From: Spirochaetaceae bacterium
GTDB lineage: Bacteria; Spirochaetota; Spirochaetia; Treponematales; Treponemataceae
Direction: 5' to 3'
Assembly (NCBI GenBank): GCA_031285525.1
Contig: JAITWB010000108.1
Location: 1 to 9,782 of the forward strand
DNA length: 9,782 nucleotides
The position numbers were made by a program, and so were the translations under genes. Positions 4,846 to 9,781 of the stretch are shown here, one piece after another; position 1 is the first letter of the stretch, and every line of letters begins with the position of its first letter. Under the pieces are notes generated by a model. It had not been told where the DNA came from, did no database searches, and was given only the letters and a program-made list of their open reading frames with translations.

Positions 4846-4917
4846 AGCGGCTGAAGGGAGTCGAACCCTCGTCCCAGGCTTGGGAAGCCCACGTAATAGC
4901 CGTTATACTACAGCCGC
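4846..4917 (-). tRNA. tRNA-Gly(CCC)
   Basis: A 72-nt cloverleaf on the minus strand. The acceptor stem is GCGGCTG (4917-4911) with CAGCCGC (4853-4847), and the discriminator base is T at 4846. The anticodon loop is TTCCCAA, with anticodon CCC at 4884-4882, which reads GGG. The T arm GAGGG-TTCGACT-CCCTT is canonical. The sequence lines up closely with bacterial glycine tRNAs as remembered from E. coli. The anticodon stem uses two wobble pairs, and the D stem is short or has a bulge. The 3' CCA is not encoded, so it must be added by tRNA nucleotidyltransferase. Its own promoter is at 4930-4957. Confidence 0.95.
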
Positions 4918-5080: not shown

Positions 5081-6790
5081 ATGAAACCCCTCTGCCGGGC
5101 ATGTACGATTATACTTCTTATGACTCTTTTCTTCGCCCCTGTTTTGCCGCTCTACGGAGAAGTGCCGGATACTATCGATTTTTGGAGCGATCTCCCGGAC
5201 GATATCCTTGCAGACGAGTTAGTGAGCCGCATGAGTGACGGGGAACTCCTCGCCCAGATCCTCATGTTCGGCTGGGCAGGACGGGAACCGTCAACACTGG
5301 TGACCGACTGGGTTTCGAAGCGGAGTCTGGGAAGCGTCAAAGTATTCGGCTGGAACACAGACAATATTACCGACGTAGCCAACTCGGTGCGCTTCCTCCA
5401 GCAGCGGGCGCAGCAAACCCGGTTCAAAATCCCCCTCTTTGTAGCCACTGATCAGGAAGGGGGCTGGATACGCCATGTAAAGGGCGCCACCTCGGATACC
5501 CCGGGAAACCTCGCAATCGGGGCATCGGGACTGCCCTCGGACGCCTACTATTCAGGCTATTATATCGCCCAGGAGCTGCAAGTGCTGGGGATAAACATGA
5601 ACTTCGCCCCTACAGTGGATCTCTATACCGATCCCCAATCAACCGTCATCGGTCCCCGCTCCTTTGGGGAAAACCCGGATGCGGCGGGTATTCTGGGTGC
5701 CTCCTTCGCGGCCGGAACGAGAGCCGCCGGGGTACTGGCAACGGCAAAACACTTCCCCGGACACGGAGACACCGGAATCGATTCCCACGGGGGGCTCCCG
5801 ATAATTGCAATAGACGAAGAAACCCTGAACAACCGGGAATTGGTACCCTTCAGGTATTTAATAGAAGAAGATATCCCTGCCATAATGTCGGGGCATATCA
5901 ACTTTCCCAACATCACCGAAAAGGGCGAACCCGCCTCTCTTTCGGCTCATTTTCTCAAGGACATATTGCGGAAACAGCTGGGTTTCAAAGGACTCATCAT
6001 CACCGACGACATGATGATGAACGGCGCCACCGCCTATACCGGCAGTTTTTCCAGCGCCGTCGCCCTCGCCATCCGCGCAGGGAACGATATCGTCATATCC
6101 TCCACCACCCCCGGCCTAAACGAAGCGGTGTGGCGTAACAACATCAGCCTCATGGAAGCCGACTCATCCTTCCGAAAAGCAGTGAGCGAAGCCGCCCGGC
6201 GGGTAATCTACTATAAACTCACCTATCTCAAACAGGAACAAGCTCCTCCTCTGTTCCCTGATCCTCAGGACATCTCAGGACAGATTCCGGCTCCCGGCGG
6301 GGACGCTTTCTTTCTGGAACAGGCCTGCCGCTCCATAACATTGTTAAGGGGAGGAGAAGCACTATCAGGAAACTTCTCCATAAAGGAAGACGAAAGAGTA
6401 TTACTTGCCGGACAGTTCCAGGATTTCTTCCGTCAGGGCGCAGCGCGATTCCCCCAGGCACGAACGGTTCGCTTTAGTTACCAGCCCTCTCAGGGGGAAG
6501 CCTCCGCAGCGGTTCAAGCCATAACCCGGCAATCCGTCTCCTGTGACACCATTATCTTCTGCGTCACAAACCGGGAAAGCCTGGATATCCTCAACAGACT
6601 GCGAACCTTGAGCAAAAGGGTCATCGTTGTTTCAGCCATGTCCCCGGTATTCATCCTCGACCTCGAATGGCCGGACACGATCATCGCCGCCTACAGCTAC
6701 TCTCCCTTTTCGTTTCAGGCGGCCTTCGGCGTCATCGCAGGAGATTTTACTCCTCAAGGGACATTCCCTCTGGCACGGGAAATCAAATGA
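5081..6790 (+). CDS. Secreted NagZ-type family 3 beta-N-acetylglucosaminidase
   Basis: A 569-residue GH3 enzyme, predicted to remove N-acetylglucosamine from peptidoglycan fragments or chitin-type oligosaccharides. The N-terminus (MKPLCRACTIILLMTLFFAP, then VLPLYGEV) is a signal peptide without a lipobox, so the enzyme is exported; E. coli NagZ is cytoplasmic. DQEGG is present in the barrel. KHFPGHGDTGIDSH (223-236) contains the Asp-His dyad typical of NagZ-type GH3 (D234/H236). TDDMMMNG contains the likely nucleophile D309. About 200 extra C-terminal residues follow the barrel, as in two-domain GH3 enzymes. The ATG at 5081 is chosen for the signal peptide and the AAGGA at 5066-5070; the frame is open upstream into the tRNA. 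The stop codon overlaps the next start (ATGA), so translation of the acetyltransferase is probably coupled. Confidence 0.9.
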   Translation: MKPLCRACTIILLMTLFFAPVLPLYGEVPDTIDFWSDLPDDILADELVSRMSDGELLAQILMFGWAGREPSTLVTDWVSKRSLGSVKVFGWNTDNITDVANSVRFLQQRAQQTRFKIPLFVATDQEGGWIRHVKGATSDTPGNLAIGASGLPSDAYYSGYYIAQELQVLGINMNFAPTVDLYTDPQSTVIGPRSFGENPDAAGILGASFAAGTRAAGVLATAKHFPGHGDTGIDSHGGLPIIAIDEETLNNRELVPFRYLIEEDIPAIMSGHINFPNITEKGEPASLSAHFLKDILRKQLGFKGLIITDDMMMNGATAYTGSFSSAVALAIRAGNDIVISSTTPGLNEAVWRNNISLMEADSSFRKAVSEAARRVIYYKLTYLKQEQAPPLFPDPQDISGQIPAPGGDAFFLEQACRSITLLRGGEALSGNFSIKEDERVLLAGQFQDFFRQGAARFPQARTVRFSYQPSQGEASAAVQAITRQSVSCDTIIFCVTNRESLDILNRLRTLSKRVIVVSAMSPVFILDLEWPDTIIAAYSYSPFSFQAAFGVIAGDFTPQGTFPLAREIK

Positions 6791-7698
6791 CGGGAACTAT
6801 CAGTCTGTCGCCGGTAACAGAAAAAGACATCCCCGAGGTTCTTGCCTTCATCGCCACCCGGGAGTCCTCCTGCGTGACCCTCTCAGAGCATCTGCTCAAA
6901 GCCCGAAAAACCCCGTCCCTTTTGGACGGCCGAACCCGATTCTTCATGCTCCGCAGCACTGACGATGAGTCACTGGCAGGGGTCTTCATGCTTTCCTCGC
7001 CGGGACTGCTCCTCCACTGCATTCCCTTTCAGACCGCCCCTGATCAGACAACGGATCAGAGGCAGCTCAAACATCAATTGTATCAGCAGCTCATCGAACT
7101 CATCCTGCCGATAGTAGCTGAAAGCACTATACAATGCATCATGGGAGAAACTGAAGGCACGGAATTCTTCGGCGATCTGATTAATGCTTCCCCTGTACAG
7201 GTGAGCGACTATTATCTCTTTGCCTTTCACCGGGAACAAATTACACCTAAGGGCTGCCACGAAGAGACTGCACACCTCCTCCTCCGTTATACCGACAGCG
7301 CAGATGCGGAGTCCCTCTATCCCCTCCAGGAAGCATACGAGTTGGAAGAGGTCGTACCCAAGGGAAGCACCTTCTCCTCTGCGCAATGTATGGCAGGTCT
7401 CAGACACACCCTCAAAACCCGGACGGCTATAGCTTTCTGGCAGGGCAAGAACCCCATAGCAAAAGCCGCGGTCAATGCCGAAGGGCTGAACTGGGTACAA
7501 ATCGGCGGAGTATACACGGTTCCCCACTGGCGTAACCGAGGCCTTGCCCGGCGGCTGGTACAGCATATAGCGGAACAGTCAGCAGAACAGGGCAGGGGAG
7601 CCTGCCTCTTTGTTAAACAGGAAAACACCGCTGCCCAAAACTCCTACCGCAACGCAGGATTTACCCAGTTCGGGGAATTCAGGATCATATACTATTGA
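6787..7698 (+). CDS. GNAT-family N-acetyltransferase
   Basis: A 303-residue acetyltransferase that would transfer an acetyl group from acetyl-CoA. The GNAT fold is clear in the C-terminal third: VQIGGVYTVPHWRNRGLARR (237-256) is motif A, with the pyrophosphate-binding loop RNRGLA (249-254), and ENTAAQNSYRNAGFTQFGEF is the motif B region. The N-terminal two thirds has no motif I recognise and may be a degenerate second GNAT domain. The start is the ATG overlapping the GH3 stop (ATGA at 6787-6790); the frame opens earlier but only as an out-of-frame reading of the GH3 gene. Coupling to the glycosidase suggests linked roles, perhaps in amino-sugar or peptide handling, but the substrate is unknown. 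No terminator is visible after it; cassette remnants begin within 25 bp of its stop. Confidence 0.85.
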   Translation: MTGTISLSPVTEKDIPEVLAFIATRESSCVTLSEHLLKARKTPSLLDGRTRFFMLRSTDDESLAGVFMLSSPGLLLHCIPFQTAPDQTTDQRQLKHQLYQQLIELILPIVAESTIQCIMGETEGTEFFGDLINASPVQVSDYYLFAFHREQITPKGCHEETAHLLLRYTDSADAESLYPLQEAYELEEVVPKGSTFSSAQCMAGLRHTLKTRTAIAFWQGKNPIAKAAVNAEGLNWVQIGGVYTVPHWRNRGLARRLVQHIAEQSAEQGRGACLFVKQENTAAQNSYRNAGFTQFGEFRIIYY

Positions 7699-7718
7699 GT
7701 TGTATTGCCTACCGTACT

Positions 7719-7754
7719 TAAAACTATATTTTAGAGATGTTTGTTCTATTCCCT
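7719..7754 (+). repeat. 36-bp perfect direct repeat, copy 1
   Basis: Exactly identical over 36 bases to 8165-8200 (begins TAAAACTATATTTTAGAGAT, ends TTCTATTCCCT), with mismatches immediately on both sides. It sits just upstream of the broken nuclease copy and 20 bp after the acetyltransferase stop, and seems to mark the 5' end of each cassette copy. It contains a weak TAAAA/TTTTA inverted repeat. Confidence 0.85.
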
Positions 7755-7756
7755 AT

Positions 7757-7999
7757 GAAAAGTGGAAACTCATTGAACCCGGAATTTATCTCTCCTTAGA
7801 AACAGCACATTTATTAAAGCGTGAAGTCATGGGTGCTTTATATAAAGCAAGAAATAGCATTACCCACACAGATCCAAAAGGAAACGTTATTAAGGGATAT
7901 GCTGATAGTACCAAATTTGTAGGCGGATTAATCATCTTGAAGCTGATAGATATAGATACTCTGATTTATTTGAATGTCGATGACTTACAGACCAGATAA
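7757..7999 (+). pseudogene. Broken paralogue of the downstream nuclease, active-site region deleted
   Basis: This frame has no usable start and ends at TAA 7997-7999. Its last 60 or so residues match the C-terminus of the protein at 8367-8960: REVMGALYKARN against REILSALFGARN, KFVGGLIILKL against KFQGGLIVIKI, LIYLNVDDLQTR against LIYLNVNDLQAR, about 55% identity overall. Just before this, EKWKLIEPGIYLS resembles residues 43-55 of the intact protein (EKWICVEEGIYLS). The simplest reading is an internal deletion of about 80 residues that removed the segment with D98, E107 and K109. The divergence shows that this was a separate paralogue, not a recent copy. An in-frame ATG at 7829 could give a 56-residue peptide, but no good ribosome binding site precedes it. 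Confidence 0.75.
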
Positions 8000-8027
8000 A
8001 AAACACCGGATGCCGTAAGACATCCGG
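7998..8027 (-). terminator. Intrinsic terminator of small RNA copy A
   Basis: On the minus strand a 7-bp GC-rich stem CCGGATG/CATCCGG (8027-8021 with 8012-8006) encloses the 8-nt loop TCTTACGG, then TG and six T (8003-7998). On the plus strand the run of A lies before the hairpin and no T-run follows, so it works only leftward. The T-run overlaps the stop codon of the broken nuclease. Confidence 0.8.
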
Positions 8028-8068
8028 GTATGGTACGGGGCGGTGGGCTTTTAATCTCACGGCCTCGC
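7998..8068 (-). ncRNA. Predicted small RNA, copy A
   Basis: A stand-alone transcription unit of about 71 nt on the minus strand, between its own promoter (8075-8104) and terminator (7998-8027). No minus-strand gene lies to its right before thrS. The body starts CGAGGCCGTGAG, has a C-rich linker (CCCACCGCCCCG) and ends in the terminator hairpin. CCGTGAG (8062-8056) is complementary to CTTACGG in the hairpin loop (8019-8013), allowing 7 pairs including one G-U. It differs from copy B at only two positions of the 64-nt body (8035 and 8051), both in the unpaired linker. It faces the broken nuclease. Expression and function are inferred, not shown. Confidence 0.65.
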
Positions 8069-8074
8069 ATATCT

Positions 8075-8104
8075 ACTATATACTCATTTAAGAGGACTTG
8101 TCAA
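8075..8104 (-). promoter_or_regulatory. Promoter of small RNA copy A
   Basis: Minus strand: TTGACA (8104-8099), an 18-nt spacer, TATAGT (8080-8075). An overlapping TATATA at 16-nt spacing is an alternative -10. The same boxes at the same spacing occur in copy B, although the bases between the -10 box and the RNA body differ in both sequence and length (7 against 10), which supports the boxes as the selected elements. Confidence 0.7.
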
Positions 8105-8105
8105 G

Positions 8106-8164
8106 TGTTTTTTCAACGGCTCTATCCGTTATCTCTGAACTTCATTGCATATTATTAAAACCGC
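8106..8164. other. Unassigned spacer between the two cassette copies
   Basis: These 59 bp separate the left tail repeat from the second 36-bp repeat. I see no coding signal and no match elsewhere in the window, apart from a weak resemblance of its right end to the bases before the first 36-bp repeat. It and 8201-8366 together form the longest gene-free plus-strand stretch here. Confidence 0.5.
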
Positions 8165-8200
8165 TAAAACTATATTTTAGAGATGTTTGTTCTATTCCCT
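8165..8200 (+). repeat. 36-bp perfect direct repeat, copy 2
   Basis: Second exact copy of the element at 7719-7754, located 166 bp upstream of the intact nuclease start. In this copy TTGTTC near its right end (8187-8192) and TATTAT (8211-8216), 18 nt apart, could be a weak promoter for the nuclease; the -10 part is absent after copy 1. This promoter reading is tentative. Confidence 0.8.
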
Positions 8201-8366
8201 TGTTTAGTGCTATTATCTATGTATCTATAGTGAGTAATTTCTTGTGATCTTGTAGGTATCCAACTTTTTTCCTAAGCGTCTATTTTTCCTTGAATTACTA
8301 CTCTTTTGTTTAGTACCCACCCGTTTCTCCTACAAAATCCACTACAGCCAAACTGGGAGGGGTAAA
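8201..8366 (+). other. Leader region of the nuclease gene
   Basis: AT-rich sequence between the 36-bp repeat and the TTG start. The nuclease frame stays open back to the codon after TAG 8253-8255, reading ...HYSQTGRGK just before the start, but contains no ATG. This open run may mean that the nuclease was cut from a longer protein. No convincing hairpin or regulatory RNA was seen. Confidence 0.45.
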
Positions 8367-8960
8367 TTGAATCCGACTTCGGAACAAATGAAAGACGAGA
8401 TATTGAAGCAAAAGGCTCAAGCGAGGGAAATAAAGAGACGATTTGAAAATGCTGAAAAAGCGAAAGCGTTGGCAGATGAATTATTTCTTGGGGAAAAATG
8501 GATATGTGTAGAAGAAGGAATCTATTTGTCGCCTCGTAGAGCTGTTGGAAAGAAATCAAACTATGCTGATGAACTTCGTGCTGCTCAAATATTACGAGAT
8601 AGTGAAAGTACTGTGTACCTTGTTCCAGAAAGCAGTCGGCAACCTGGAAAGAAGTATGATGCTATCGTCAATGGTCTAAAATTTGAAATCAAAACAATAG
8701 GCGGAAATGCCAATACTCTCGAACACCAATTTCTGCGTTCTCGCTCACAAGCTCCAAATGTGTTTATCAATTTGGAAAATGCAATCCTCACAAGACGAGA
8801 GATACTATCAGCTTTATTCGGTGCAAGGAATAAGCCAGAGACAGATAAAATACACGGTTATGCCTATTACAACAAGTTTCAAGGAGGGCTGATTGTAATC
8901 AAAATTAAGAATCAAGAAAATCTGATTTATTTGAATGTCAATGATTTACAGGCCAGATAA
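8367..8960 (+). CDS. Stand-alone PD-(D/E)XK-like nuclease resembling CdiA-CT/MuF tRNase toxin domains
   Basis: A 197-residue protein. Residues 1-45 are a charged, probably coiled-coil helix (QKAQAREIKRRFENAEKAKALADE). ADELRAAQIL at 67-76 supplies a conserved-looking Glu. KKYDAIVNGLKFEIKT (95-110) has D98, E107 and K109, the D-x8-E-x-K core of PD-(D/E)XK nucleases. NANTLEHQFLRSRSQAPNVFINL (114-136) fits the helix and strand after the core in CdiA C-terminal tRNase domains, as recalled from the family. The start is TTG at 8367, with GGAGG 6 nt upstream (8356-8360); the later ATG at 8388 lacks such a site. It is lower in GC than its neighbours, and no delivery domain, signal peptide or protein immunity gene accompanies it. 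The stop codon touches the terminator tract of the convergent RNA. Nuclease assignment is moderate; tRNA as substrate is inference. Confidence 0.7.
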   Translation: MNPTSEQMKDEILKQKAQAREIKRRFENAEKAKALADELFLGEKWICVEEGIYLSPRRAVGKKSNYADELRAAQILRDSESTVYLVPESSRQPGKKYDAIVNGLKFEIKTIGGNANTLEHQFLRSRSQAPNVFINLENAILTRREILSALFGARNKPETDKIHGYAYYNKFQGGLIVIKIKNQENLIYLNVNDLQAR

Positions 8961-8990
8961 AAAAAACACCGGATGCCGTAAGACATCCGG
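8959..8990 (-). terminator. Intrinsic terminator of small RNA copy B, also serving thrS
   Basis: Minus strand: CCGGATG (8990-8984), loop TCTTACGG, CATCCGG (8975-8969), TG, then eight T (8966-8959). It is the first terminator downstream of thrS, so read-through transcripts from thrS should end here too. The T-run overlaps the nuclease stop codon. Confidence 0.85.
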
Positions 8991-9034
8991 GTATGGTGCG
9001 GGGCGGTGGGCTTCTAATCTCACGGCCTCGACTT
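8959..9034 (-). ncRNA. Predicted small RNA, copy B, convergent with the intact nuclease
   Basis: About 76 nt from a predicted start near 9034 to the T-run at 8959. The 5' part holds CCGTGAG (9025-9019), complementary to CTTACGG (8982-8976) in the terminator hairpin loop. A 28-nt C-rich linker with CCCACCGCCCCG joins them. Full pairing of both 7-bp helices at once is sterically strained, because no nucleotides separate the loop segment from the 3' stem arm. A partial pseudoknot, a kissing dimer or an alternative fold is therefore more likely. The promoter begins 6 bp after the thrS stop, so the RNA could be made both independently and from the thrS 3' end. Candidate RNA antitoxin or regulator of the nuclease; unproven. 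Confidence 0.68.
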
Positions 9035-9040
9035 ATGCTA

Positions 9041-9070
9041 AGTATATCGTCTTTTAAGAGGATTTGTCAA
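9041..9070 (-). promoter_or_regulatory. Promoter of small RNA copy B
   Basis: Minus strand: TTGACA (9070-9065), an 18-nt spacer, TATACT (9046-9041). The -35 matches consensus fully and the -10 in 5 of 6 positions. It sits just after the thrS stop codon. The spacer half next to the -35 (ATCCTCTTAAA) is also shared with copy A. Confidence 0.75.
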
Positions 9071-9076
9071 GCTCTC

Positions 9077-9781
9077 TTAAATCTCGATACTTCTGGAAGC
9101 GATCTTATCCTTTATATACACGATAAAATCATCGAGCTTCATCGTTTCCTTTCTGCCGTCCCTAAAGCGTATCGCTGCGGAGTCGGTTTCCGCTTCCTGC
9201 TGTCCCACTACCAGCATGTAGGGGATGCGGAGGTTCTGGGCGGTGCGGATCTTGGCGTTCATCCGGTCGGTGCCGACATTCGCTTCCACCCGCAGGCCTG
9301 CCGCTTTGAGCTTGTCAGCGACGGCCTGGGCGTAGTCATTGAAGGGGGGAGCCACAGGGATTACCTGTACCTGGTTGAAGTGGAGCCACGGCGGAAGAGC
9401 TCCGGCGCAGTTTTCCAGCAGGATGCCGATAAAGCGTTCCAGTGAACCGAGGATCGCCCGGTGGAGCATCACCGGGGTGTGCCGGGAGTTGTCTTCCCCC
9501 ACGTATTCGGCGTTGAGACGTTCCTTTGAGGGGAGCTGGTAGTCTACCTGGAGGGTTCCGCACTGCCAGAGCCGGCCCATGGCGTCGATGAGGGTGAATT
9601 CGAGTTTGGGGCCGTAGAAAGCGCCTTCTCCGGGGGCGAGTTCGTAGGAGAGTCCCGCCTGTTTACAGGCATCTGAGAGAGCCGCTTCTGCCCGATCCCA
9701 GGTTTCGTCGTCACCCACCCGCATTTCGGGTCTGGTGGAGAACCGGACGATGATCTTTTCTTCTCCAAAGCCGAAGTCGGT
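9077..9781 (-). CDS. thrS: Threonine--tRNA ligase, C-terminal part (continues beyond the window)
   Basis: The last 234 residues of threonyl-tRNA synthetase, which charges tRNA-Thr. The visible part begins [20 protein letters not shown] and includes [12 protein letters not shown] and [11 protein letters not shown] of the class II catalytic domain. Motif 3 follows in [17 protein letters not shown], containing the ATP-binding arginine. The C-terminal anticodon-binding domain starts near [14 protein letters not shown] and includes [15 protein letters not shown] and [11 protein letters not shown]. The stop is TAA at 9079-9077. The frame runs off the right edge, so the start and the N-terminal editing domain are not seen. 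Downstream lie only the small RNA promoter and its terminator. Confidence 0.96.

Follow-up and report, generated by a model that had tools for sequence, protein, structure and literature searches.

The DNA analysed in this study (hereafter the window) is a stretch of 9,782 nucleotides from a Spirochaetaceae bacterium (assembly GCA_031285525.1, contig JAITWB010000108.1), and its subject is a nuclease gene that is followed, in convergent orientation, by a putative small-RNA gene. The pair is situated in a low-GC island between a GNAT gene (end 7698) and thrS (end 9077). The G+C content of the island is 36–41 %, vs 52–62 % in its flanks, as measured in 400-bp windows. The island is composed of two units, each containing a nuclease gene (or its remnant) and a minus-strand small-RNA gene, and both units begin with an identical 36-nt sequence. 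The features are as follows.

7719..7754, plus strand: 36-nt sequence, left boundary of unit 1 (identical to 8165–8200)
7748..7999 (left edge approximate), plus strand: nuclease remnant of unit 1, N-terminal and C-terminal pieces without the catalytic core
7998..8071, minus strand: predicted small RNA, copy 1
8027–8006, minus strand: intrinsic terminator of RNA copy 1, a 9-bp stem then a T-run
8104–8075, minus strand: promoter of RNA copy 1, TTGACA-N18-TATAGT (11/12)
8165..8200, plus strand: 36-nt sequence, left boundary of unit 2 (identical to 7719–7754)
8355..8362, plus strand: ribosome-binding-site-like GGGAGGGG ahead of the TTG start of the nuclease
8367..8960, plus strand: nuclease open reading frame (ORF) of unit 2, TTG start, 197 aa, stand-alone PD-(D/E)XK protein of CdiA-CT fold
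8961..9034, minus strand: predicted small RNA, copy 2 (5′ hairpin, CC-rich linker, terminator)
8990–8969, minus strand: intrinsic terminator of RNA copy 2, a 9-bp stem then a T-run
9070–9041, minus strand: promoter of RNA copy 2, TTGACA-N18-TATACT (11/12)

The first-pass annotation of this DNA had described an orphan nuclease with no protein immunity partner, followed tail-to-tail by a complete small-RNA gene, the arrangement recurring to the left with the nuclease broken and the RNA gene intact. Each of these points was upheld. Both RNA genes have a near-consensus minus-strand promoter and an intrinsic terminator, the transcript itself being a prediction; the start of RNA copy 2 is placed approximately 7 nt past the −10 box. 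As read from the sequence, the left nuclease retains the N-terminal '..YEKW..EPGIYLS' and the C-terminus, and its middle, including the D/E-x-K region, is gone. No ORF is confined to the 117 bp that separate the nuclease stop codon from thrS. When ORFs of 35 aa or more, starting no more than 400 bp behind 53 nuclease loci, were compared all against all, no downstream protein family proved common to more than two of the loci.

The sequence TTGACA-N18-TATANT occurs exactly twice in the window (0 of 200 shuffles). A plain scan gave two terminator-like sites, with 1.4 expected, and four promoter-like sites, with 4.4 expected, so that the pair stands out through its near-consensus quality and its repetition and not through the number of sites. 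Over 70 nt, the two RNA blocks share 97 % identity, and the adjoining 112 nt, mostly the nuclease 3′ end, share 71 %; in global alignment, 66/71 positions agree in the RNA and 70/102 in the nuclease 3′ end. This greater similarity of the RNA blocks is what would result from selection on the RNA or from its recent copying. No Rfam family matched the RNA in the window.

The nuclease was compared with known structures, and its sole clear match, among the fold matches listed, was CdiA-CT, a contact-dependent inhibition (CDI) toxin of the tRNase type. It has both the fold and the catalytic acidic and lysine residues of the PD-(D/E)XK CdiA-CT proteins, with a sequence identity of 18 % to CdiA-CT of Burkholderia pseudomallei 1026b (PDB 4g6v). 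ToxN is not among the fold matches listed, and it was through that listing that the ToxN/CptN/TenpN fold was compared. A sequence search of the PDB yielded nothing credible, NCBIfam and PHROGs nothing significant, and a tblastn search of INPHARED phages no match; with PADLOC there was a single match, a weak one (E 2.7e-4), to the model of a type I restriction enzyme.

Relatives of the nuclease are, in several cases, parts of phage head proteins. On viral contig L007 the nuclease forms the C-terminus of a Phage_Mu_F protein, in the gene order terminase, portal, Phage_Mu_F–nuclease fusion, major capsid, and further Phage_Mu_F fusions were found at L049, L061, L166 and L167. At L030 and L031 it forms the C-terminus of a Phage_min_cap2 protein, followed at L030 by an amidase (endolysin) gene. 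The nuclease–RNA pair is thus associated with two kinds of phage head protein, and is also found in stand-alone form. The window nuclease is of the latter form, detached from MuF, and the fusion is seen in relatives only. The designation CdiA-CT/MuF-like, given in the first-pass annotation, is therefore supported by both the fold and the C-terminal position of relatives in MuF-type head proteins. In one metagenomic nuclease (P0080), the reading frame continues through the apparent RNA block, so that the block is visible in the protein letters.

It was of interest to determine whether a convergent RNA is general behind nuclease genes of this kind. Nuclease loci were scored with a detector for a minus-strand promoter (score of at least 10/12) then a terminator near the stop codon, and 288 ORF ends, from 20 control stretches in five of the genomes, served as controls. 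The 59 loci scored include three remote relatives (L034–L036) and exclude L013, L054 and L087, which are cut by contig ends. The detector was positive at 46/59 nuclease loci, vs 5/288 control ORFs, and a stricter version at 42/59 vs 1/288. Two of the 46 positives (L028 and L085) lie farther off than the RNA block itself. When the promoter alone was scored, 44 of 56 loci reached at least 10/12 and 48 at least 9/12, the control figures being 8/288 and 23/288, respectively. Eleven more distant nucleases, collected later, allowed the result to be checked on new loci. One extends beyond its locus; among the ten scored (the gene end having been placed by hand in two), a convergent promoter of at least 9/12 was found in all ten and one of at least 10/12 in eight, against the same control frequencies of 23/288 and 8/288. 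Homologues do carry the convergent RNA block directly downstream.

Some loci depart from the usual layout. By eye, the RNA of L035, and possibly that of L034, lies within the coding end. In the clade of L020, L026, L037, L041 and L044, the predicted RNA gene is inside the nuclease coding 3′ end, so that the same DNA would specify protein and an opposite-strand RNA. At L047 (G446 contig 7, 6176–6223 and 6370–6418), two RNAs of the R2 class (see below) are in tandem behind one nuclease. At L061, L166, L167 and L168 the layout is unusual by eye, the terminator stem seeming to enclose the whole structure.

The usual RNA has a length of approximately 55–130 nt and consists of a 5′ hairpin, a short linker and the terminator. 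Eight sequence types were distinguished. When these were mapped onto a nuclease tree of 50 sequences, from which loci without an assigned RNA type or with too short a nuclease had been left out, seven changes were required, the minimum possible for eight types, and shuffled assignments required at least 26. The loop GGCNUUGUA hardly varies in types B and C, the hairpin of which (12 sequences) has changed on both sides at five of its nine pairs; its covariation score was reached by none of 500 shuffles and by no slid version of the alignment. The minus strand was the more stable in 33 of 44 RNAs. Within the window, the plus-strand version of the hairpin regions 8035–8070 and 8998–9032 is far more stable, with a loop, CUUYUAAU, that we take to resemble the anticodon loop of a lysine or arginine tRNA; tRNA mimicry is not claimed here.

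Covariance models of two RNA classes, R1 and R2, were then run on 195 genomes, giving 18 matches in 9 genomes for R1 and 43 matches in 33 genomes for R2. The nuclease profile detected a nuclease or remnant just upstream of 38 of these 61 matches and none at 18, the other five being located at contig ends. Training loci, or an identical copy, account for 20 of the 61. The 41 non-training matches are divided into 18 with a nuclease or remnant, five at contig ends and 18 without a profile match. The last group is heterogeneous: L142 and L143 show nuclease C-terminal remnants by eye, and L123, L130, L134 and L135 look like orphans. It also includes the three weakest R1 matches (L095–L097, E 5e-4 to 9e-4), which are probably false. 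A wide scatter of the RNA block at unrelated loci, which the first-pass annotation had set against its own proposal, was not observed, the 18 comprising some remnants, an array and some plain orphans. The array (L137, contig G436:C48, approximately 6127–6720) holds four RNAs of three types in a row, two detected by R1, one by R2 and one, L028-like, by eye, and no nuclease was found there. A tRNA and an integrase, suspected by eye beside this array, were dropped after ARAGORN found no tRNA and Pfam no domain.

Other searches with the RNA returned little. There were no matches to the exact RNA pattern in the genome contigs, none in plasmids and phages, and none to the type B motif in viral contigs, where the type A motif recovered the already known phage only; Rfam, run on 15 of 181 loci, matched tRNAs only. 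The possibility of an integron attC site or a dispersed repeat was rejected on the grounds of low copy number (61 matches in 195 genomes, for two RNA classes only) and the presence of a promoter and terminator. Among 56 assessable loci of the clade, all but L005 and L088 have a complete RNA as judged by detector, model or eye, and the nucleases of these two are broken. RNAs with a broken or absent nuclease, such as that of unit 1 in the window, are not rare. This asymmetry is the pattern expected of a poison and its antidote.

The most economical reading of the computed features (the fold, the fusion of relatives to phage head proteins, the recurrence of promoter, RNA and terminator in convergent orientation, RNA types that track the nuclease clades, covariation in one RNA class and no widely shared downstream protein) is that the RNA is an antidote that binds the nuclease. 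The unit would then be a toxin–antitoxin or immunity cassette, a reading to which we assign a probability of roughly 0.6. The toxin would be the tRNase-like PD-(D/E)XK protein, which in relatives would serve as the C-terminal warhead of a MuF-type phage head protein. The antidote would be the small structured RNA, transcribed from a convergent promoter of its own close downstream of the toxin gene; it would most likely bind the nuclease as a substrate-like decoy, perhaps a tRNA-like one, and so keep the producing or lysogenic cell alive. RNAs without a toxin, including the run of four RNAs of three types, might protect against related toxins from other phages. We infer the transcription of the RNA, the toxicity of the nuclease, their direct binding and the resulting protection.

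The main rival is antisense control, in which the RNA, as in a type I system, would pair with the nuclease mRNA in the 3′ untranslated region produced by read-through and trigger decay of that mRNA, controlling synthesis of the toxin and not the protein itself. The RNA is perfectly complementary to any transcript reading past the nuclease stop, no plus-strand terminator was called in 7600–9300, and in type E and at L035 the RNA overlaps the coding 3′ end. At most loci, however, the complementarity is restricted to the 3′ region past the stop codon, away from the ribosome site and the start. Moreover, antisense pairing needs neither the covarying stems nor the near-fixed loop of types B and C, RNAs without an adjacent nuclease and the mixed array have no cis target, and such control would presumably be useless against a toxin arriving as a virion protein. 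Antisense control is judged unlikely, although it retains more weight than the other alternatives. It is considerably less probable that the block only ends or regulates transcription behind mobile phage cargo and that the convergent RNA has no antidote role. Convergent promoters can limit read-through, and the AT-rich window unit looks acquired, but both the near-consensus promoter and the T-run fit the minus strand alone, the arrangement is seldom found at control ORFs, and RNA structure and loop are conserved in types B and C despite divergence of the nucleases. That the RNA is a cofactor or guide directing the nuclease, as in RNA-guided nucleases, would accommodate the fixed pairing with one small RNA and the match of RNA class to nuclease clade, but it is very improbable given that the predicted folds are largely paired with no obvious variable unpaired guide stretch, that the protein has the fold of a known toxin, and that the RNAs persist without the protein.

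Several points weigh against the antidote reading. The detector thresholds were chosen after many loci had been viewed, the sorting of RNAs into types was done by eye, and nuclease loci supplied the training set for the RNA models. Half of the assessable non-training RNA matches (18/36) had no nuclease found alongside. A 600-nt gene decays faster than a small RNA; this alone favours orphan RNAs and works in the same direction as the asymmetry described above. Physical linkage alone would also cause RNA type to track nuclease clade. In the promoter-only test 8/56 loci failed, six of which have an RNA by eye, by RNA model or with a weaker promoter. The 1914-aa protein of L036, a very weak relative of the nuclease (E 5.8e-4), is followed not by such an RNA but by a 107-aa ORF. 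In the L137 array, no promoter scoring 10/12 or more was called, and a −35-like box was seen by eye at the last RNA only. Finally, covariation is weak in type A, the window's own type, many RNAs of which have an A–C mismatch on the minus strand, and the 5′ hairpin of the window folds better on the plus strand (−18.3 vs −8.6 kcal/mol on the minus strand). The assignment of the window RNA to the minus strand rests, for this reason, on its promoter and terminator and not on folding.

Polymorphic toxins are generally answered by immunity proteins. For the MuF polymorphic toxins of temperate phages, a small ORF, putatively a protein immunity gene, is reported behind 89.4 % of 191 toxin genes (PMC5576092). 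The nuclease described here resembles these toxins in its C-terminal position on Phage_Mu_F head proteins in the five relatives named above, and differs in having an RNA gene in place of the small downstream ORF. It differs likewise from CdiA-CT of B. pseudomallei 1026b, for which immunity is conferred by a protein, CdiI, and delivery is by the CdiB/CdiA system (PMC9086364). The type III systems compared, ToxIN, AvcID (PMC10511110) and AbiF/RCd22 (PMC12373285), share with the present unit the proposed principle of an RNA antidote to a protein toxin, and these provide a direct precedent for RNA antidotes: RCd22 neutralizes its toxin in cis and in trans by RNA–protein contact, and is situated upstream of abiF, with which co-transcription has been suggested (PMC12373285). 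ToxI is a set of repeats (PMC8860590). Here, in contrast, there is usually one RNA unit, downstream, convergent and equipped with its own promoter, and the toxin fold appears to be different. An upstream antitoxin RNA in the same orientation was found neither in the window nor in relatives, and there is one RNA unit behind the window nuclease, tandem RNAs being seen at L047 and, without a nuclease, in the L137 array.

Type I systems with convergent small-RNA genes under their own promoter exist, for example txpA/RatA, and the present unit is similar to them in this respect. Their toxins, however, are usually small hydrophobic proteins (PMC6563280); the toxin proposed here is a nuclease, of 197 aa and with a nuclease fold, and the RNA lies for the most part outside the coding sequence. 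The misfit to types III and I noted in the first-pass annotation is supported. By orientation, repeat structure and the missing immunity protein, the module departs from features that define type III, type I and MuF/CDI systems; that it works like an RNA–antitoxin system is plausible. In literature searches, mainly of titles and the openings of abstracts and excluding preprints outside PMC and most subscription papers, no RNA partner of a MuF or CdiA-CT nuclease was encountered.

A broader proposal, to which we give slightly less than even odds, is that a class of phage-borne polymorphic tRNase-like toxins uses an RNA and not an immunity protein, that the RNA co-diversifies with the toxin, and that the leftover RNAs of hosts provide immunity against phage-delivered toxins. 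If the RNA is indeed an antidote, it would link phage warheads to RNA antitoxins, explain the spread of such toxins without a protein partner, and provide a varied natural collection of RNAs that inhibit tRNase-like toxins. Confirmation would add a new form of protection against such toxins, for bacteria as well as phages, with gut spirochaetes carrying the nuclease–RNA pair.

Elsewhere in the window, a tRNA-Gly (CCC) gene of ordinary appearance is situated on the minus strand at 4846–4917, beside a gene for a TPR protein.
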